A program made the translations under genes and the position numbers. DNA of 34,013 nucleotides from a virus. The stretch spans positions 109,967 through 143,979 of the IMG/VR virus record IMGVR_UViG_3300029448_000001. The stretch is one strand, 5' to 3'. Numbering within the stretch: position 1 is the stretch's first letter; each line of letters begins with the position of its first letter. Positions 8,737-17,134 of this stretch are shown piece after piece. Under the pieces are notes generated by a model, which searched no databases, was not told the origin of the DNA, and was given only the letters and a program-made list of their open reading frames with translations.

Positions 8737-9417
8737 ATGCAAGATTTTTACCATGTAGGAGTTGATTTAAAATATGATGATTTAGAGTCAGAAACTATAA
8801 ATGGCAAAAGGTATTACCTTACTCCTAGTGGTGAAAAATATCCGTCAGTTACCACAGTTACTGGATTGCAAAGTAAGAAGGCAATTATGGATTGGCGTAA
8901 GCGAGTTGGCGAAAAACAAGCAAATAAAATTTCTTCACAAGCATCTGCAAGAGGAACCAAAGTGCATACCCTTTGTGAAAGATATTTGAACAATGAAATA
9001 TATTATAAAGAAGGCTTTACGCCAAATGACCTAGGAATGTTCTATAAAATTAAAACTATATTAGACACAAAAATATCTAATATACATGGACTTGAAATTC
9101 CTCTTTACTCAAATTATTTAAAAGTTGCAGGTAGAGTGGATTGCATTGCAGAATATAATAATAAACTTTCTGTTATTGATTTTAAAACATCAACAAGAGA
9201 AAAGAATGAAAGATATATTCAAAATTATTTTATGCAAACTTCAGCTTACGCTGTAATGTATGAAGAACTTACTAGAATACCAATTACAAATTTGGTTGTA
9301 ATAATTGCTGTACAGGAAGGAAATTCTCAAGTTTTTACTAAAAAGCGAGATGATTATATAGATGATTTTATTTCTTACAGAAATTTGTTTGACGAACTAT
9401 ATACAGAACATATATAA
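8737..9417 (+). CDS. PD-(D/E)XK nuclease (RecB/Cas4-type exonuclease)
   Basis: A 226-residue protein. The active-site order of the PDDEXK_1 fold is visible: RGTKVHTLCE with His77, Glu120 in GLEIPLY, AGRVDCIAEY with Asp135, then VIDFKTS with Asp148 and Lys150, and QTSAYAVMYEE with Gln167 and Tyr171. The QxxxY motif is typical of RecB-like and lambda-exonuclease-like enzymes. There are no 4Fe-4S cysteines, unlike Cas4. It probably degrades or processes DNA ends in recombination or host DNA breakdown. It ends just before the tmRNA acceptor piece, so it may share its transcript. Confidence 0.85.
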   Translation: MQDFYHVGVDLKYDDLESETINGKRYYLTPSGEKYPSVTTVTGLQSKKAIMDWRKRVGEKQANKISSQASARGTKVHTLCERYLNNEIYYKEGFTPNDLGMFYKIKTILDTKISNIHGLEIPLYSNYLKVAGRVDCIAEYNNKLSVIDFKTSTREKNERYIQNYFMQTSAYAVMYEELTRIPITNLVVIIAVQEGNSQVFTKKRDDYIDDFISYRNLFDELYTEHI

Positions 9418-9419
9418 TA

Positions 9420-9515
9420 TAAGAATAATCGTATGAATAGTATTGTAATTATGCTATTTGTTACGTTTTATGAAAGTTGTTTTGGACGTGGGTTCAATTC
9501 CCACCACCTCCACCA
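9420..9515 (+). ncRNA. ssrA: tmRNA acceptor piece (3' half of a two-piece tmRNA)
   Basis: This ends in a tRNA-like 3' half: T stem GUGGG (9488-9492), T loop UUCAAUU, CCCAC (9500-9504), acceptor strand CACCUCC (9505-9511) and an encoded ACCA (9512-9515). CACCUCC pairs perfectly, with one G-U, with GGGGGUG at 9969-9975, over 450 bases downstream. GUUGUUUU (9476-9483) can pair with AGAAUAAU (9989-9996) as helix P2. UUUUGGACGUGGGUUCAA resembles the E. coli tmRNA 3' end. A 7-bp hairpin (9437-9443 with 9451-9457, loop UGUAAUU) lies upstream. The 5' end near 9420 is estimated. In permuted tmRNAs this piece is transcribed before the coding piece, as here. Confidence 0.9.
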
Positions 9516-9527
9516 GTTAGGAAAGAT

Positions 9528-9995
9528 ATGTACGAATATAATTGTAAAATAGTTAGAGTTGTTGATGGCGATACAGTTGATGTTGACATTGATTTAGGAT
9601 TCGGTCTTTGGATTCATAATGAAAGAATACGATTGTATGGTATAGACACTCCTGAGTCTAGAACTAGAGACTTAGTGGAAAAGAAATATGGACTATTTGC
9701 AAAAGAATTTGTACAGTCTCATTTGCCTGTAGGTAGTATCGCAACACTAAGAACGCAAAAAGATAAGGCAGGTAAGTTTGGTCGTGTATTAGGTGAATTT
9801 ATGTTAAGAGAGTCAACGTCAGATTTGACGGGGCTTATCAAAATAGAAACACTTAATCAGTTAATGATTCATTTTCATATTGGTGTTGCATACCATGGGC
9901 AATCTAAAGATTTAATAGAAGATGAGCATAGAAGGAATAGAGATTTAGTTGATTTAAATTGTTTAAATGGGGGTGTACAGGTTTCGACAGAATAA
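9528..9995 (+). CDS. Staphylococcal-nuclease-like nuclease lying between the tmRNA pieces
   Basis: A 155-residue protein. ATG 9528 has AGGAAA at 9519-9524; the frame is open further upstream but that part is tmRNA. All SNase active-site residues are seen: Asp15 in VVDGDTV, Arg35, Asp40 and Glu43 in RIRLYGIDTPE, and Arg86 in KFGRVLGE. There is no signal peptide, so it should act in the cytoplasm, perhaps in host nucleic acid breakdown. The whole gene sits in the intervening segment of the permuted tmRNA. Its last eight codons and stop (9969-9995, residues GGVQVSTE) are exactly the first 27 bases of the tmRNA coding piece, on a codon boundary. Confidence 0.9.
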   Translation: MYEYNCKIVRVVDGDTVDVDIDLGFGLWIHNERIRLYGIDTPESRTRDLVEKKYGLFAKEFVQSHLPVGSIATLRTQKDKAGKFGRVLGEFMLRESTSDLTGLIKIETLNQLMIHFHIGVAYHGQSKDLIEDEHRRNRDLVDLNCLNGGVQVSTE

Positions 9996-10137
9996 TGAGT
10001 AAGAAGAACTTACGATTCGGTAGGCGATGACCGTAAATCAAGCAATTAAAATAGATGCTAATGACGAAGAGTATCTTTTAGCCGCTTAAGGTTAAATGAG
10101 GTTTTGACGATTGAGCCTTATTACCCAATCAATCGTC
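9969..10137 (+). ncRNA. ssrA: tmRNA coding piece (5' half with tag reading frame)
   Basis: It starts with acceptor strand GGGGGUG (9969-9975) and a D-loop-like GGUUUCGAC, as in tmRNA 5' ends (GGAUUCGAC). GUAAG (9999-10003) and CUUAC (10009-10013) form a hairpin. CGGU (10018-10021) with ACCG (10030-10033) and flanking GAUU/AAUC fits pseudoknot 1. AAAAUAG precedes the resume codon GCU 10057-10059. The tag frame to UAA 10087-10089 encodes ANDEEYLLAA, close to E. coli ANDENYALAA and ending in the ClpXP degron-like LAA. A hairpin GACGAUUG/CAAUCGUC (10106-10113 with 10130-10137) follows. No T arm or CCA lies downstream, so the gene is permuted. The 3' end is estimated. Confidence 0.92.
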
Positions 10138-10739: not shown

Positions 10740-11402
10740 ATGAAAATTGGTATCGCTAATTCTTATGACTATAGTTATTGTGAATTAGGTAATCACACAT
10801 GGACAGATAATAAAAGAGTATATGCACAAAGACATGGCTATGAGCCACTTTGTAAGATATATGCTAATGATGATATTCCTCATGGGTTTAAAAAACTATT
10901 TTATATCTTAGAAATATTTACTACGCATTCAGACATTGAGTGGGTATGGTTTACAGGTTGTGATTCAATGATAACAAATATGACAATCAAACTTGAAGAT
11001 ATTATTAAAGAACATGCTGATGAAAATACACACTTGATTATATCTAAAGATTATAGAGATATAAATGCCGATAGTTTTTTAATAAAAAATTCAGAAGCAG
11101 GTATAAACTATATTAATTTTATTTGCGACCAACTCGACAAATACAAAAATGATAATTGGGTAGAACAACAAGCAATGATTGACCACGCTACTCAATATTC
11201 CCCTATTATGAGATATGTTCCTCAAAGAACATTTAATTCTTATAATTATGATTTATATCCTGATTGCCCTCCTCCTCACGTTGATAAATTAGGGCATGAT
11301 GGAAATTGGAAGCATGGTGATTTTCTAATTCATTGGCCGGGGTTAAGTTTGCAAAATAGAATATCACTTTACCATCAATACAAAAACTTTATGGTGGAAT
11401 AA
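10740..11402 (+). CDS. GT34-like glycosyltransferase
   Basis: A 220-residue protein similar in layout to the galactosyltransferase GMA12/MNN10 (GT34) group. It starts MKIGIANSYDYSY, then NHTWTDNKRVYAQRHGYEPL, then HGFKKLFYILEIF. WVWFTGCDSMITN (68-80) is the DxD-like metal and sugar-nucleotide site, here reading GCDS instead of DSD. NADSFLIKNSEAG and WVEQQAMID follow in the right order, and HWPGLS near the end carries the late His. It probably transfers a hexose to a glycan. It is shorter than eukaryotic members, which have a membrane anchor. Confidence 0.75.
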   Translation: MKIGIANSYDYSYCELGNHTWTDNKRVYAQRHGYEPLCKIYANDDIPHGFKKLFYILEIFTTHSDIEWVWFTGCDSMITNMTIKLEDIIKEHADENTHLIISKDYRDINADSFLIKNSEAGINYINFICDQLDKYKNDNWVEQQAMIDHATQYSPIMRYVPQRTFNSYNYDLYPDCPPPHVDKLGHDGNWKHGDFLIHWPGLSLQNRISLYHQYKNFMVE

Positions 11403-11468
11403 ATGAAAATTTATCTTTATATATTTTTGATGTCCATAGCACTTGTATTTTTAGTAGCCCTTTGGTAA
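11403..11468 (+). CDS. 21-residue membrane micropeptide in the glycan cassette
   Basis: A frame of 22 codons starts directly after the stop of the previous gene (TAA then ATG) and ends one base before the next ATG. It encodes MKIYLYIFLMSIALVFLV then ALW, a single hydrophobic helix. It occupies the whole gap with no wasted bases, which suggests a real coupled gene, but hydrophobic frames are common in AT-rich DNA. It might anchor or regulate a glycosyltransferase. Confidence 0.45.
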   Translation: MKIYLYIFLMSIALVFLVALW

Positions 11469-11469
11469 A

Positions 11470-12261
11470 ATGAAAAATTTTTCTCATTTTGGAACATTTG
11501 GTGATACAATTTATAGTCTTTGTGTAGTCAAACTTTTAGGTGGCGGTAACATGTACATAAAGTTGGACTACTTAAATTATTTTTGTAGAGAAGTTTTACG
11601 CTGGACTGATGCAGGCCCTGGAGCAGGAAGATATACACAAAAAGATTATGATATGTTAGCACCTTTATTAAAAGCACAAGATTATCTTCATGACGTTGAT
11701 GTTTATAAAGACCAGTCTATTGACGTTGATTTTGAAAATCATTATAGATTTCATTTGATGGGAGATAGATGGAGAGGTAATCAAACAGAATGTTATGCTC
11801 TTACTCAAAACTTAAATATACATGATGAAAAAATCAGCAATGCTTTGATTAGACTTCCATGGTTAAACAATATTGATCCTATCTATCAGCCTGAAAAAAT
11901 TTGTATAAACAGAACCTCTAGGCATCATCATGGAGAAACAGGAGATTCTAAAAAAGTTTATGAGAAGTTTATATCTGATGATTGTTTTTTTGTAGGAACA
12001 GAACAAGAACATACAGATTTCTGTGATGAATTTAAATGTGATGTAAGATATCAAAGAACAAATGATTTATTAGAATTAGCGAGATACATAGAGGGTTGTG
12101 AAATGTTTTTAGGTAATCAAAGTTCTGCTCTAGCAATAGCTATAGGTCTTGGTAAAGATTTAAGATATGAGATAAGAAAAGATTATCAGTCAGAGTATAT
12201 GACAAGTCCACATGGACATGGCGATGTTTGGTTCCCAAGAGATAATATAGGATATTTTTAA
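11470..12261 (+). CDS. GT-B glycosyltransferase-like (heptosyltransferase-type) protein A
   Basis: A 263-residue protein. HFGTFGD (6-12), then IYSLCVVKLLGGGN, is the N-terminal nucleotide-binding style loop seen in ADP-heptose/GT9-like proteins. The C-terminal half has FFVGTEQEHTDFCDEF and LLELARYIEGCEMFLGNQS, the usual donor-site region of GT-B enzymes. The product of 17128-17844 shares both blocks, so the two are paralogues at the two ends of the sugar genes. It likely transfers a sugar to a glycan acceptor. The exact family is inferred from motif pattern only. Confidence 0.65.
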   Translation: MKNFSHFGTFGDTIYSLCVVKLLGGGNMYIKLDYLNYFCREVLRWTDAGPGAGRYTQKDYDMLAPLLKAQDYLHDVDVYKDQSIDVDFENHYRFHLMGDRWRGNQTECYALTQNLNIHDEKISNALIRLPWLNNIDPIYQPEKICINRTSRHHHGETGDSKKVYEKFISDDCFFVGTEQEHTDFCDEFKCDVRYQRTNDLLELARYIEGCEMFLGNQSSALAIAIGLGKDLRYEIRKDYQSEYMTSPHGHGDVWFPRDNIGYF

Positions 12262-13565
12262 TGGATTCAAATTTATTAGATATAGTAAGAAAAAATATAT
12301 TAAAGAAAAATCATGAATGGAAAGCTGGTGAAGATTTAGTTCACTACGCAGGACCATACTTTTTTGAAGATGAGTACATGGCGGCAATTGAATCTTTGTT
12401 AGATGGTTGGCTCGTTATGGGTAAAGCGTGTATAAGATTTGAAAACAAATTCCCAAAACAAATGGGAAGAAAGCACGGTGTTTTAACAAACTCTGGGTCA
12501 AGTTCAAACTTACTAATGATGTCAGCGTTAACATCAAAACGATACACGAACTTTCCAAAAGGCACAAAAGTTCTTATGCCGATTGCAGGTTTTCCGACAA
12601 CACTTAATCCTACAATTCAAGTAGGATTTGAGCCTGTGTTTTTAGATATAGAATTAGATACGTTGAATTTAGATTTGACAAAAGCTGAAGACTTAATTAA
12701 AGAACATGATATCAAAGTCATTACATTTGCTCATGTACTAGGCAATCCTCCGAATATGGACGATGTGATGGCATTAGTAAAGAAATACGACTTAGTTTTG
12801 TTAGAAGATTGTTGTGATGCCTTAGGGTCAACTTATGATGGTAAACCATTAGGAAGTTTTGGCTCTATGGCATCATGTTCATTTTATCCTGCTCATCATA
12901 TGACTATGGGTGAAGGTGGATTTGTAACGTGCGAATCTGAACAATTAGAAATTGTTGTTAGGTCATTTAGAGAATGGGGAAGAGGGTGTTATTGTGTAGG
13001 ACCAAAAGCTAACGTGCTAAAAAATGGAACATGTAAAAAAAGATTTTCAGAATGGATTCCTACAATGACAGGCGAAGTATTTGACCATAAGTATGTTTAT
13101 GATGAAATAGGTTACAATTTAAAACCTATTGATTTGCAGGGTGCAATTGGTCTAGTGCAATTGGAAAGGCTCGGTAAAATTCACGAACTCAGACGAAGAA
13201 ATTATCGGCTTCTTTTCTCAATATACGAAAAGTATGAACAATTTTTCCATTTGCCTAGACCAAGAGCCTTATCAAATCCATCATGGTTTGCTTTCCCTAT
13301 AACGATTCGTGAAGATGCTCCATTTACTAGAACTGATTTAGTAAATTACTTTGAAGACCATAAAATTCAAACAAGACCTTATTTTGCAGGTAATATAATG
13401 CTACAACCTGCATATTCGCATTTAATGAATCCTGAAGATGCTAAAAACAATTTTCCTGTAGCAACGTACACCATGACACATACATACTTTCATGGTACAA
13501 GTCCTGTAATTACACCAGAGCAAATAGAATATATAGGATATGTTTTACAAAAGTTTATGACTTGA
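12261..13565 (+). CDS. RfbH/DdhC-like NDP-4-keto-6-deoxyhexose 3-dehydrase
   Basis: A 434-residue DegT/DnrJ/EryC1-fold protein, the usual RfbH length. Two features separate it from ordinary aminotransferases. The PLP-binding Lys is replaced by His in YPAHHMTMGEGG (His212-213), as in PMP-dependent C3-dehydrases. It also carries the iron-sulfur cysteines GRGCYCVG (243, 245) and Cys258 in NGTCKKRF. Asp183 in LEDCCDALG binds the cofactor pyridine. Known members (E1/DdhC) remove the 3-OH of CDP-4-keto-6-deoxyglucose with help from reductase E3 (DdhD), which is not seen here. It leads directly into the ThDP enzyme gene. Confidence 0.85.
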   Translation: MDSNLLDIVRKNILKKNHEWKAGEDLVHYAGPYFFEDEYMAAIESLLDGWLVMGKACIRFENKFPKQMGRKHGVLTNSGSSSNLLMMSALTSKRYTNFPKGTKVLMPIAGFPTTLNPTIQVGFEPVFLDIELDTLNLDLTKAEDLIKEHDIKVITFAHVLGNPPNMDDVMALVKKYDLVLLEDCCDALGSTYDGKPLGSFGSMASCSFYPAHHMTMGEGGFVTCESEQLEIVVRSFREWGRGCYCVGPKANVLKNGTCKKRFSEWIPTMTGEVFDHKYVYDEIGYNLKPIDLQGAIGLVQLERLGKIHELRRRNYRLLFSIYEKYEQFFHLPRPRALSNPSWFAFPITIREDAPFTRTDLVNYFEDHKIQTRPYFAGNIMLQPAYSHLMNPEDAKNNFPVATYTMTHTYFHGTSPVITPEQIEYIGYVLQKFMT

Positions 13566-13587
13566 TTATTAATAGAAAGGCGGCGAT

Positions 13588-15351
13588 ATGAAAGGTAAAG
13601 AATACATAGCTAAATTTTTAAAAGCTATTAACATAGATAATGTTTTTTTAGTGCAAGGCGGTGCATGTTCTTTTATGGTAGATGCAATTGCAAAAGAAAA
13701 TATAAATTATACATGCTTTCAACATGAACAAGGAGCGGCCATGGCCGCTGATGCTGTTTGGAGAACTACTGATAGAAAAAAAATAGGAGCAACTTTTTGT
13801 ACAAGTGGCCCAGGAGCATCTAATTTAGTAACTGGTATTGCTTGTGGATATTTTGATAGCATACCTAGTTTTCATATTTGTGGGCAAGTCAACGGGAAAG
13901 AAGTAGGGCAGTACAATGGAGCAAAGGTAAGACAAGCTGGCTTTCAACAAATGGATATAGTTAGTATGACTAAAGCGATTACTAATTATGCTGTAGCTGT
14001 TACGAATGGAGAAGAATTAAGACAAGAATTAAAGACATGTTATGAAAAAGCATTTGAGGGTAGAGGCGGTCCTGTTTTAATTGACATTCCTATGGACGTA
14101 CAGACTGATGAAATGGAGAACAGCGAACTTTTATTACCAGAAGTAAGAATGGTAGTATCTTCATCAACTAAAATTGAAGAAATACGAAATAACATATCTG
14201 AATTTTTTAAAGATTCTGAAAGACCTTTAGTAGTTTATGGAGCAGGCGTAGAACTGTCAGGTGTTTCAGAACAACTTAATGAATGGCTAATTGATAATTG
14301 TGTGCCTTTTGTTTCAAGTTGGTCAGCACTTAATTCATTTGAACATTCACTACCTAATTATTATGGACACTTTGGTGTGTATGGCAATCGAGGTGCAAAT
14401 TATATTATTCAAAATGCGAGTAATATTTTGGTCTTAGGGTCAAGACTTGACAACAGGCAACGCTCTGGTAATCCTAAACTATTTGCACCTCACTCTAAGG
14501 TCATGGTTGTTGATATTGATGGAGAAGAATTAGTGAAGTATGATTCGGAATGGAAAAAAGAAATTTTAGATTTAGTCCATCTTCCTAAAGTATTAGAAAA
14601 TTATAAGTTGCCTGAGTATTCTCCAGAGTGGGTAGATTATTTGAAAAATATAAAAGAAGAGTTTTATAATGTCGATATCTCTACTGAACCTAAAAAATAT
14701 AAAAGTTTAAATCCTTATGAAGTTGTGCAGAAGATGAATGAAATTATAGATGATGATGCTATGCTATTTGCTGATGCTGGTGCTAATCATGTATGGGTTT
14801 ATCAAATGTTTAACAGAAGAAAAAATCAACTTCTTACAACATCATCAGGCCATTATGCTATGGGCTACAGTTTGCCTGCATCTATAGGAGCAAAATTAAA
14901 TAATCCTGATAGGCAAGTGATTAGTTTTAATGGTGATGGCGGAATCCAAATGAATATTCAAGAATTACAAACAATGCTTGAGTATGACTTAGGAATTACT
15001 GTTGTTGTATTTAACAATCATGGTTTAGGTATGATAAGACAATTTCAGAATACTTACATGGGGGGCAGACATCATGCTACAGGAAATGGTCAAGGTCCAG
15101 GCAGACCTAATCTTTCGGGTATAGCTACTGCGTATTCTATGGATTATTTAAGAGTTACATCAATTGACCAAGTTAATGAAAATATGTTTAAGCGTGAAAA
15201 TAAAAGATTACTAATCGAATTTGTCATTGATGAAAAAGTTTTAATAGAACCTAAGTTAGAGGGTGGCAGACCAATCAATGACCAGTTTCCGTATGTGAGT
15301 GATGAAGAGTATGCTGAAAATAATAAGTTTGTAAATTATTCTAGAGGTTGA
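13588..15351 (+). CDS. ThDP-dependent acetolactate-synthase/YerE-like enzyme
   Basis: A 587-residue three-domain ThDP enzyme. The N-terminal Pyr domain has QGGACSFMVDAI and the catalytic Glu47 in FQHEQGAAMAAD. The middle domain follows VLIDIPMDVQ. The C-terminal PP domain has NGDGGIQMNIQELQ, with the GDGG...N cofactor and Mg site at 449-456. It matches the acetohydroxyacid synthase family. Next to an RfbH-like dehydrase the closest functional model is YerE, which adds a two-carbon unit from pyruvate to a 3,6-dideoxy-4-keto sugar to build the branched sugar yersiniose. That role is inference from adjacency; a plain acetolactate synthase would be odd in this setting. Confidence 0.85.
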   Translation: MKGKEYIAKFLKAINIDNVFLVQGGACSFMVDAIAKENINYTCFQHEQGAAMAADAVWRTTDRKKIGATFCTSGPGASNLVTGIACGYFDSIPSFHICGQVNGKEVGQYNGAKVRQAGFQQMDIVSMTKAITNYAVAVTNGEELRQELKTCYEKAFEGRGGPVLIDIPMDVQTDEMENSELLLPEVRMVVSSSTKIEEIRNNISEFFKDSERPLVVYGAGVELSGVSEQLNEWLIDNCVPFVSSWSALNSFEHSLPNYYGHFGVYGNRGANYIIQNASNILVLGSRLDNRQRSGNPKLFAPHSKVMVVDIDGEELVKYDSEWKKEILDLVHLPKVLENYKLPEYSPEWVDYLKNIKEEFYNVDISTEPKKYKSLNPYEVVQKMNEIIDDDAMLFADAGANHVWVYQMFNRRKNQLLTTSSGHYAMGYSLPASIGAKLNNPDRQVISFNGDGGIQMNIQELQTMLEYDLGITVVVFNNHGLGMIRQFQNTYMGGRHHATGNGQGPGRPNLSGIATAYSMDYLRVTSIDQVNENMFKRENKRLLIEFVIDEKVLIEPKLEGGRPINDQFPYVSDEEYAENNKFVNYSRG

Positions 15352-15353
15352 TT

Positions 15354-16190
15354 ATGAAAAAAATGTTATTGACAGGTTCTACAGGTTTTGTTGGGAAATT
15401 TTTAAAGAAGAAGATAAAATCTAAACTAGACAAAGAGTATGAATTGTTTTGTCCTAACAGAGATGAATTAGATTTGACATCAACAATGGCTGTAACTTAC
15501 TATGCAATAGAAAAAGGCCCTTTTGATGTAATTATGCATTGTGCATCGGCAGGACGAGAAACTCCTAATATTATCGACAATAACATTTTTAAAGATAATT
15601 TATTAATGTTTTATAACTTAAAAAGAATAGCAACTCCAGAAAAAGGTTATTGTAAGTTTTTTAATTTTGGTAGTGGTGCAGAATTCAGCGTAAGCAGTAC
15701 TGTAGAAAAAGCTGATGATGTTTGGCGTTGGCACCCGCTAGAAAGTTACGGTGCAAGTAAAAATGTAATTTCAAGAGCCGCCGCGTATGGAACTTATGAT
15801 TATGTGTTAAGGCTTTTTTCTACCATAGATAAATCTGAATCTGAAAAAAGACTTCTCAAACAATTTATAGCATCAGTAAAAAATGAAAAAGTTTTTGAGA
15901 TACCTGCTGATAGATATTGCGATTTTTTTAGTTTAAGAGACTTATGGAAAGTAATAAAAGTTTATTTGAAATATCAGATTGTTTGTCAACACCAAACTAA
16001 TTGTGTATATGAAGATAAATTTAGAGTGTCCGATGTTATAAAAATGTTTTGTGAAATTCACAATATTCCTCATACATCATACAAAGTAACTGGCTGTCAC
16101 TTAAATCATTATACAGGAAAATATAACTTACATAAAATGGGAGTTAGATGTGAAGGTTTAGAACCATCTTTAAAGGAATATAAGATTTGA
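15354..16190 (+). CDS. NDP-sugar SDR (reductase/epimerase-like)
   Basis: A 278-residue extended SDR. ATG 15354 is preferred to TTG 15348 because AGAGG (15343-15347) is upstream. TGSTGFVG (7-14) is the NAD(P) loop, DVIMHCASAG the strand-4 region, GSGAEF the Ser region, and Tyr132-x3-Lys136 (ESYGASKN) the catalytic pair. The second half is divergent. In yersiniose or abequose pathways an SDR of this type (YerF, RfbJ) reduces the 4-keto group or side chain, which would fit here. It overlaps the next gene by 4 bases. Confidence 0.75.
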   Translation: MKKMLLTGSTGFVGKFLKKKIKSKLDKEYELFCPNRDELDLTSTMAVTYYAIEKGPFDVIMHCASAGRETPNIIDNNIFKDNLLMFYNLKRIATPEKGYCKFFNFGSGAEFSVSSTVEKADDVWRWHPLESYGASKNVISRAAAYGTYDYVLRLFSTIDKSESEKRLLKQFIASVKNEKVFEIPADRYCDFFSLRDLWKVIKVYLKYQIVCQHQTNCVYEDKFRVSDVIKMFCEIHNIPHTSYKVTGCHLNHYTGKYNLHKMGVRCEGLEPSLKEYKI

Positions 16191-17134
16191 AGAAAGTAGT
16201 TTATGTTACAGGTTGTTTAGGTTTTATTGGGCACCATCTTACTAGAATTTTATTAAGCAATGGATTTTATGTAATAGGTGTAGATAAAATGACCTATGCA
16301 TCTAATGACGATTTTTTAGTTAATCTACAAAGATTAGGAGCAGAACGATTTAAATTTATTAAAAGTGATATTAATGATTTAGATAAACTTTATGATTGCG
16401 ACTATGTTATAAACACAGCCGCCGAAACTCATGTAGATAATAGTATTGTTTCTTCAGAAGTATTTTTAAAATCTAATGTAAATGGTGTTCATCACTTATT
16501 AGAATTGATTAAACAAAAGAATTTATTTAAAATTCCTACACTTCTACATTTTTCAACTGACGAGGTGTATGGTGATATTGAAAAGGGAAATCACTTTGAG
16601 ACTGATTTGCTAAAGCCTAGTAATCCTTACTCAGCATCAAAAGCCGCCGCGGATATGCTGATACTTGCTTGGGCAAGAACCTTCAATATCCCATACATTA
16701 TCGTCAGGCCCACTAATAATTATGGCACAGGTCAGTATGCAGAAAAACTTATTCCAAAAACATGCAAACATCTTTCACTTGATAAGAAGGTAGATGTTCA
16801 TGATAAAGGATTGCCTAAAAGAACTTGGTTACATGTGGAAGATACTTGTAGTGCAATTCTACAAATTATTACGTCTAGAGCAAAAAATCAAATTTATAAT
16901 ATAAATGGAAATCATGAATGTGCAAATCTTGAAGTAATTCGCAAAATTATAACTTGGACCACTGGCGATACAAACATAGAAAAATACTTAGAACATTTTA
17001 CAAGGTCAGGGGGTGACGTAAGATATTCTTTAGATGATTCAAAGTTGAGAAATCTAGGTTGGAAACCTACGGCAGATTTTGATATTGAATTAAAAAAAAT
17101 TATAGACTATCATAAGGACAATTTTATATGGTAA
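16187..17134 (+). CDS. NDP-glucose 4,6-dehydratase-like (RmlB-type) SDR
   Basis: A 315-residue protein starting at TTG 16187, with AAGGA at 16173-16177; no better ATG exists. TGCLGFIGHHL is the NAD loop, VDKMTYASN the RmlB-type adenosine contact, INTAAETHVDNSI the next block, HFSTDEVYGD the Thr-Asp-Glu catalytic set (124-126), and YSASKAAAD the Tyr148/Lys152 pair. NNYGTGQYAEKLIP and RTWLHVEDTC complete the family pattern. It should make an NDP-4-keto-6-deoxyhexose, the substrate the RfbH-like enzyme needs. Whether the nucleotide is dTDP or CDP cannot be told. It overlaps the last glycosyltransferase by 7 bases. Confidence 0.88.
   Translation: MKKVVYVTGCLGFIGHHLTRILLSNGFYVIGVDKMTYASNDDFLVNLQRLGAERFKFIKSDINDLDKLYDCDYVINTAAETHVDNSIVSSEVFLKSNVNGVHHLLELIKQKNLFKIPTLLHFSTDEVYGDIEKGNHFETDLLKPSNPYSASKAAADMLILAWARTFNIPYIIVRPTNNYGTGQYAEKLIPKTCKHLSLDKKVDVHDKGLPKRTWLHVEDTCSAILQIITSRAKNQIYNINGNHECANLEVIRKIITWTTGDTNIEKYLEHFTRSGGDVRYSLDDSKLRNLGWKPTADFDIELKKIIDYHKDNFIW

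Follow-up and report, generated by a model that had tools for sequence, protein, structure and literature searches.

A nuclease gene in the spacer of a two-piece phage tmRNA and similar spacer genes among related phages

The stretch of DNA analyzed here (the window) comprises the 34,013 nt at the 3' end of the 143,979-base virus record IMGVR_UViG_3300029448_000001 (positions 109,967-143,979) and encodes a circularly permuted, two-piece tmRNA wrapped around most of a nuclease gene (Table 1). A two-piece phage tmRNA had been proposed from the letters alone, and a covariance-model search with the corresponding Rfam model (RF04321, tmRNA_permuted) bears this out: a single match at 9456-10089 covers both the acceptor and coding pieces with 71.8 bits (E 4e-12, cut-off 47), and RF04321 is the sole family matched when the window is compared with all Rfam families by cmscan. 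The standard-form model RF00023 yields two half matches, both below its cut-off (36.4 and 35.8 bits), and ARAGORN reports no tmRNA in the window. The proposed 7-bp acceptor stem between the pieces is likewise present (7/7 pairs, one of them G-U), as is the tag ANDEEYLLAA, for which both the sequence and the RF04321 alignment give an Ala resume codon, a small hydrophobic C-terminus and a stop. Helix P2 is predicted as well, but with 9 pairs instead of the proposed 8, and 38% of shuffled sequences pair equally well. As P2 alone does not exceed shuffled sequence, it was dropped as independent evidence and the covariance model bears the tmRNA claim.

Table 1. Features at the tmRNA locus of the window
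Feature	Position	Strand	Basis or remark
PD-(D/E)XK exonuclease, conserved upstream neighbor of the tmRNA locus	8737..9417	+	PF12705, phrog_298, synteny
Promoter-like TTGACG-18-TATAAT, candidate only	9389..9418	+	11/12 consensus matches; just 5' of the acceptor piece
Acceptor piece	9420..9515	+	RF04321, sequence; 5' end guessed, model match begins at 9456
P2 3' strand	9476-9484	+	predicted pairing with 9988-9996
T arm	9488-9504	+	sequence
Acceptor 3' strand CACCTCC	9505-9511	+	sequence
ACCA, end of acceptor piece	9512-9515	+	sequence
Spacer (IVS), 453 nt	9516..9968	+	lies between the encoded CCA and the first acceptor-stem base of the coding piece
Shine-Dalgarno (SD) AGGAAAG of the nuclease gene	9519..9525	+	sequence
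SNase-like nuclease ORF, 155 aa	9528..9995	+	PF00565, phrog_452, AlphaFold/Foldseek
Coding piece	9969..10137	+	RF04321 to 10089; 3' end inferred
Acceptor 5' strand GGGGGTG, then GGTTTCGAC	9969-9975	+	sequence
P2 5' strand	9988-9996	+	predicted pairing
Tag frame GCT..TAA, ANDEEYLLAA	10057..10089	+	sequence, RF04321 alignment
Coding-piece 3' hairpin	to ~10137	+	3' end inferred

The surroundings of this locus are those of a T4-like virus, judging from its PhoH, gp32 and PD-(D/E)XK genes and their synteny. Promoter-like sites such as the candidate in Table 1 are not in excess in the region (4 found versus 4.8 expected from shuffles). Positions 10740-17134, 3' of the tmRNA, hold a run of genes resembling sugar-nucleotide or surface-sugar enzymes, with aminotransferase-like, thiamine-dependent enzyme-like and NAD-dependent epimerase-like ORFs among them, all named from their translations alone. 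The two-piece form had also been read as a pointer to the host, which proved to be a weak marker. The phage Melnitz infects OM43, while the available part of PMC9004378 describes its tmRNA as being of alphaproteobacterial type; in our searches it matches RF01849, and other phages in the set match the beta-type or cyano-type tmRNA models of Rfam. As this mismatch illustrates, the type of a phage tmRNA may differ from that of the host, and the host inference was therefore abandoned.

The nested gene encodes a putative SNase-type nuclease, which occurs in a single copy in the virus record. Its product matches PF00565 (33.7 bits, cut-off 21) and phrog_452, and its AlphaFold model (pLDDT 83.9) resembles staphylococcal nuclease 2eym in a Foldseek comparison (E 2e-7, TM by target 0.66); a sequence search of the PDB with the same protein gave no match. 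Residues R35, D40, E43 and R86 as well as G14-D15 are invariant in 25 relatives, and we take R35, E43 and R86 to correspond to the catalytic Arg/Glu/Arg of S. aureus nuclease. The sequence-only reading had described the gene as complete within the spacer. Its ATG (9528) does lie there, but its stop codon (9993-9995) falls on nucleotides 25-27 of the coding piece and is part of P2, leaving 147 codons in the spacer and the final 8 amino acids plus the stop in the tmRNA itself. Codon 147 ends exactly at 9968 and no stop occurs up to that point; thus, RNase P cleavage at 9968/9969 would yield a nonstop mRNA of exactly 147 codons. In the structural model the last helix extends to residue 146, and the chain is disordered from residue 147 onward; the domain itself thus fits within the spacer.

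The nearest relatives of this nuclease (L003-L005) do not reside in a tmRNA at all. Compared with L003, the window shares 86% identity over exactly 441 nt, from the ATG to the cleavage site, versus 27% in the 60 nt upstream and 32% in the 60 nt downstream. The window gene looks intact, and the substitution pattern between these two genes (dN 0.07, dS 0.61, dN/dS ~0.11) shows purifying selection. With 453 nt, the window spacer is far longer than those of 32 other permuted genes (7-170 nt, found among 120 loci retrieved solely by their acceptor pattern), consistent with the initial remark that known spacers are short; long ones are rare, but the available text of PMC11915505 does describe them.

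The same order of acceptor piece, SNase gene and coding piece recurs in L041, L043, L045, L046, L051 and L052, which carry a second SNase lineage (SNase-B) and stem from contigs of five other metagenomes (3300025120, 3300025137, 3300001589, 3300025168 and 3300030108). RF04321 matched in all five of the SNase-B loci scanned, with 94.9-114.1 bits (L046 was left out). Their spacers measure 454-455 nt, and the stop codon TAA is placed 1-2 nt 5' of GGGGGTG. Between L043 and L045, the SNase genes differ with a dN of 0.088 and a dS of 1.0. In an SNase tree of 54 rows, the window type and SNase-B fall into separate well-supported clades, with SNase-B intermixed with relatives lacking a tmRNA; in three of its close kin (L030, L036 and L048), the SNase gene sits between the exonuclease and gp33 without tmRNA halves. 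A single capture followed by gene replacement was considered, but two captures are favored because the SNase clades are separate and a starred branch lies between the exonuclease of the window and that of an SNase-B phage. The leader RTTAGGAAAR-ATG is common to the window SNase and SNase-B, and this similarity leaves the single-capture reading open.

Three further loci combine an SNase gene with parts of a tmRNA. L028 has the SNase gene and the coding half but no acceptor half, L216 the acceptor half and the SNase gene but no coding half; both come from the same metagenome, 3300030103, and are probably reciprocal assembly chimeras formed within the SNase gene. The idea that the coding half in L028 acts together with an acceptor piece supplied by the host was rejected, since L216 is the reciprocal of L028. 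In L376 (3424-3967), a 123-nt match to a standard-form tmRNA, far below the usual length, is followed directly by an SNase-like ORF, a third pairing of such a gene with a tmRNA.

Whereas the gene in the spacer could at first be regarded as a single oddity, it belongs to a recurrent pattern among related phages. A scan for an acceptor followed by AGGA and ATG returned 59 stretches, and pooling of all loci gathered by then gave 66 distinct permuted spacers by pattern, a set partly selected for SD and ATG. Thirty-two of these 66 have an SD-like motif and an ATG no more than 40 nt from the spacer start; the ORF of 29 of the 32 either ends at most 12 nt short of the coding piece or passes into it. 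Fifteen of the 29 ORFs stop 1-2 nt before the coding piece, all four SNase-B spacers included, 3 stop 12 nt before it and 11 enter it, with 9 of the 11, among them the window, in frame at the junction. Nonstop tagging is thus not the prevailing arrangement, since cleavage would leave the stop in place in the first 15. Shuffled spacers are spanned by chance at a rate of 0-0.05 when at least 138 nt long and 0.10-0.42 when short, and individual short cases therefore prove little. Among loci fetched without regard to ORFs, AGGA plus ATG occurs in 3 of 38 distinct spacers, and all 3 are spanned. Rfam searches of 13 loci from the AGGA scan found a permuted tmRNA in 12, L376 being of standard form. 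A parallel scan for GGAG-type SD motifs parsed 58 loci (40 standard, 12 neither and 6 permuted) and found no convincing spanning ORF in the 6 permuted genes, which have 4 distinct spacers. Spacers of the L346/L359 type, in which the ATG opens an ORF of just 5 codons, were counted as failures; by eye, a TTG start would give a short ORF running to the usual TGA. One scan of bacterial contigs for a cellular spacer gene of this pattern gave 3 matches, all to standard-form genes (RF00023), and hence no such gene.

By eye, the cargo falls into approximately 14 unrelated-looking families, several of which resemble single membrane-helix peptides, and searches of the spacer peptides against Pfam and PHROGs found no convincing match. 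Substitution patterns indicate that several of these genes are under purifying selection: a 41-aa family has a dN of 0.010 and a dS of 0.16 (L367 versus L372), and dN is lower than dS in 10 of 10 pairs among the five members of a family with 98-nt spacers, whereas a 23-aa pair differs by just 3 changes and so says little about selection. Separately, four permuted spacers (L103 3924-4025, L104 4008-4148, L196 6527-6697 on the plus strand, and L088 on the minus strand) share the peptide DWYYTxNEWSRLGxxGPLPxERN in a frame entering the coding piece. Two of the four lack an ATG, and a strong end helix is missing from all of them; L103 and L104 differ in this peptide with a dN of 0.10 and a dS of 1.26, a bias not seen in the other frames.

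Most cargo is found at one T4-like locus with the order PhoH-exonuclease-tmRNA-gp33-gp59-gp32. Of the 29 loci tested, which bear cargo or belong to the same class, 18 have an exonuclease gene at most 3 kb upstream; among the others, a weak distant exonuclease match is all that occurs in 1, gp33/gp59/gp32 occur downstream without the exonuclease in 3, and both are lacking in 7. An exonuclease tree was built from 34 of 44 loci, the 10 left out including two SNase-B and two tmRNA-less loci. In this tree near relatives differ in spacer content, and the non-coding state requires 7 changes. The closest comparison is provided by L155 and L115, whose tmRNA halves agree at 118 of 120 bases in the coding piece and at 83 of 89 in the acceptor piece; the spacer of L155 encodes a 41-aa gene, while that of L115 consists of 59 non-coding nt, which suggests a cargo swap.

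A second recurrent feature is a predicted helix between the two ends of the spacer. Among 31 cargo spacers, the ends pair with a mean of -8.0 kcal/mol versus -4.5 kcal/mol when ends are swapped between spacers (0/2000 permutations), and 16 family representatives give -7.9 versus -4.5 kcal/mol, with 0 of 10,000 permutations as low. The positions flanking AGGA are occupied by A-T, T-A, G-C or C-G pairs in different phages, and the SD itself is predicted to lie within the helix formed with the spacer 3' end in 30 of the 31, the window being the exception. AGGA has a mean predicted openness (n=31) of 0.03 in the precursor and 0.08 in the free spacer, and this value rises to 0.73 when the last 20 nt of the spacer are omitted versus 0.06 when 20 middle nt are omitted. 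In nearly all relatives, the folding predictions thus show a covarying helix that hides the cargo SD. The ends of 27 non-coding spacers pair in the same manner (-10.7 versus -4.4 kcal/mol swapped); therefore, the first role of the helix is probably to join the two ends for processing. In the window, the spacer ends reach only -0.4 kcal/mol, i.e. the SD-hiding helix is absent, and the SD has a predicted openness of 0.57 in the precursor and 0.78 in the free spacer. For this reason, a regulatory reading suits the relatives better than the window.

Based upon these features, we interpret the locus as a circularly permuted phage tmRNA, the spacer of which serves as a cargo slot for protein genes, the cargo here being an SNase-type nuclease, and we would place the probability of this reading at roughly 0.7. 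As far as sequence evidence reaches, its established elements are the presence of both tmRNA halves, the intact nuclease gene with its signature of purifying selection, the exact fit of a homologous gene from its ATG to the cleavage site, the recurrence of the arrangement with other cargo in relatives and, in nearly all of these, the covarying helix predicted to cover the cargo SD. Several inferences can be made regarding its operation. A single transcript would contain the acceptor piece, the nuclease message and the coding piece. The precursors of two-piece tmRNAs are thought to be cleaved by RNase P and tRNase Z, according to the available part of PMC3985003, and by extrapolation from known two-piece tmRNAs, excision of the window spacer is to be expected. 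RNase P cleavage at 9968/9969 together with 3' maturation at the CCA (9515) would then create two tmRNA pieces that stay paired, and processing would release the 453-nt spacer as nuclease mRNA. Presumably, both products, tmRNA and nuclease, are made.

Translation of the cargo and folding or cutting of the tmRNA are likely to be mutually exclusive. The cargo could be translated from the nascent transcript while the 3' end of the spacer is not yet made; once it is made, the helix would close, cargo translation would end and the tmRNA would mature. A cut spacer would have its stop codon at the very end or none, and if none, the tmRNA should act on it. The nuclease message of the window, once cut, would itself be such a tagging target, in which case stable nuclease should derive mainly from uncut transcripts. 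A ribosome terminating on the uncut window transcript would sit on P2, where the nuclease stop lies, and given the missing helix and the open SD, nuclease synthesis and tmRNA maturation should compete. It is also possible, if rather doubtful, that the cargo forms an exchangeable cassette with a built-in switch, in which the paired ends close the tmRNA precursor and hide the SD, and nonstop cargo is tagged by its own tmRNA in a self-limiting loop. Translation of a given transcript would then be confined to the time before its 3' end is synthesized, or would follow trimming; failing that, the transcript would become tmRNA.

The most serious competitor, which we consider plausible at somewhat below even odds, is that genome compaction explains the arrangement, the spacer being simply a handy spot for a small gene, with both products made and no link between nuclease translation and tmRNA maturation. 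The lack of an SD-hiding helix in the window agrees with this view, as do the mutually unrelated cargo families, most of them without any match, and SD hiding may be a by-product of a helix that the non-coding spacers share. However, simple compaction sits less easily with the placement of the SD itself in a predicted helix in all but one of the cargo spacers and with stops 1-2 nt before the coding piece, or frames entering it, in 26 of 29 cases. An unlikely alternative holds that the nuclease has displaced tmRNA function in the window, where the halves would be decaying and only the nuclease would matter. The window does have the lowest RF04321 score among the complete permuted genes run in cmscan (71.8 versus 94.9-147.5 bits), it has lost the spacer helix and is missed by ARAGORN, and kin of SNase-B keep the SNase gene at this locus without tmRNA halves. 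Against decay, the acceptor stem and T arm are intact, as are the CCA, the Ala resume codon and the tag with its stop. It is highly improbable that the nuclease is a selfish homing-type invader comparable to the homing endonucleases in tmRNA group I introns, even though two SNase lineages occupy tmRNA spacers in distant phage backbones, as cmscan detected neither a group I intron nor any further RNA family there, the insertion is delimited by the sites of tmRNA processing, and most cargo consists of short proteins without nuclease similarity. Least credible of all is an artifact of assembly in which tmRNA halves were fused with a nuclease gene foreign to them, since despite the probable chimeras L028 and L216, the full arrangement occurs in mutually diverged contigs of five other metagenomes.

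When compared with known systems, the window shares with permuted two-piece tmRNAs (RF04321; alpha, beta and cyano) the order acceptor-spacer-coding, the inter-piece acceptor stem and the tag frame, and differs in that its spacer is occupied by a protein gene, the frame of which terminates in the coding piece. Two-piece tmRNAs of marine phages, namely the OM43 phage Melnitz and pelagimyophages, have already been published (PMC9004378), and their locus is arranged as here, with the exonuclease upstream and gp33 and gp59 downstream; the available part of that paper is silent on spacer genes. In the Melnitz isolate (L244 1565-1706), annotated as SsrA only, we find a 142-nt spacer with an SD, a TAAACACTT/AAGTGTTTA helix and a 54-codon ORF in frame into the coding piece (shuffle chance 0.04). 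A glutamine riboswitch match lies just downstream. Among other cultured phages, Moby (71 nt), Bhz51 (56 nt) and DLP_6 (31 nt) have no convincing spacer gene, Rb1 and SM1 have longer spacers than these three, and S-CAM1 has almost none. The hypothetical CDS gp271 annotated inside the tmRNA coding piece of the Stenotrophomonas phage Moby (L389 1359-1472) is probably a false gene call.

Unusual spacers and tmRNA-embedded genes have been described elsewhere as well. According to the available text of the tmRNA database paper (PMC11915505), the spacer of one permuted gene, 1152 bp long, contains a repeat, and that of another contains a tRNA-Ala gene; these spacers are likewise very long or hold another gene, but theirs is an RNA gene or repeat and that of the window a protein gene. 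The same text describes tmRNA group I introns carrying LAGLIDADG homing endonucleases, in which a protein gene also lies within a tmRNA gene; however, these introns are self-splicing and located in the T loop, whereas the window has no intron and its gene lies between two mature ends. A functional parallel is E. coli arfA, which according to the available part of PMC3989581 becomes a nonstop mRNA after RNase III cleavage and is repressed by tmRNA. In both cases the stop would be removed by processing and the product tagged, which for the window is predicted only if cleavage occurs; arfA is an unlinked gene cut by RNase III, while the window would depend upon RNase P and its message is part of the tmRNA precursor. 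Two tmRNA-like genes without a tag frame (L114 4080-4146, 67 nt, and L208 13740-13814 on the minus strand, 75 nt), both above the RF00023 cut-off, resemble the tRNA-like-only tmRNA of phage DS6A as described in the available part of PMC4131195. Our search, mainly of non-subscription literature outside bioRxiv preprints, found no report of a protein gene in a tmRNA spacer, nor is one mentioned in the available portions of PMC9004378, PMC11915505, PMC4131195, PMC10504331, PMC3985003 and PMC3989581. Two-piece phage tmRNAs, long spacers and a tRNA gene in a spacer are known, and the protein genes would be the new element.

The arrangement bears on the purpose of phage tmRNAs; many of these phages keep a tmRNA at one locus, to which some add genes. 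The cargo adds families of unannotated, predicted small phage proteins, encoded at loci that ARAGORN can miss. A spacer that would otherwise be discarded would thereby gain a function, and a ribosome-rescue RNA that encloses a message within its own precursor would directly link RNA processing to nonstop translation.
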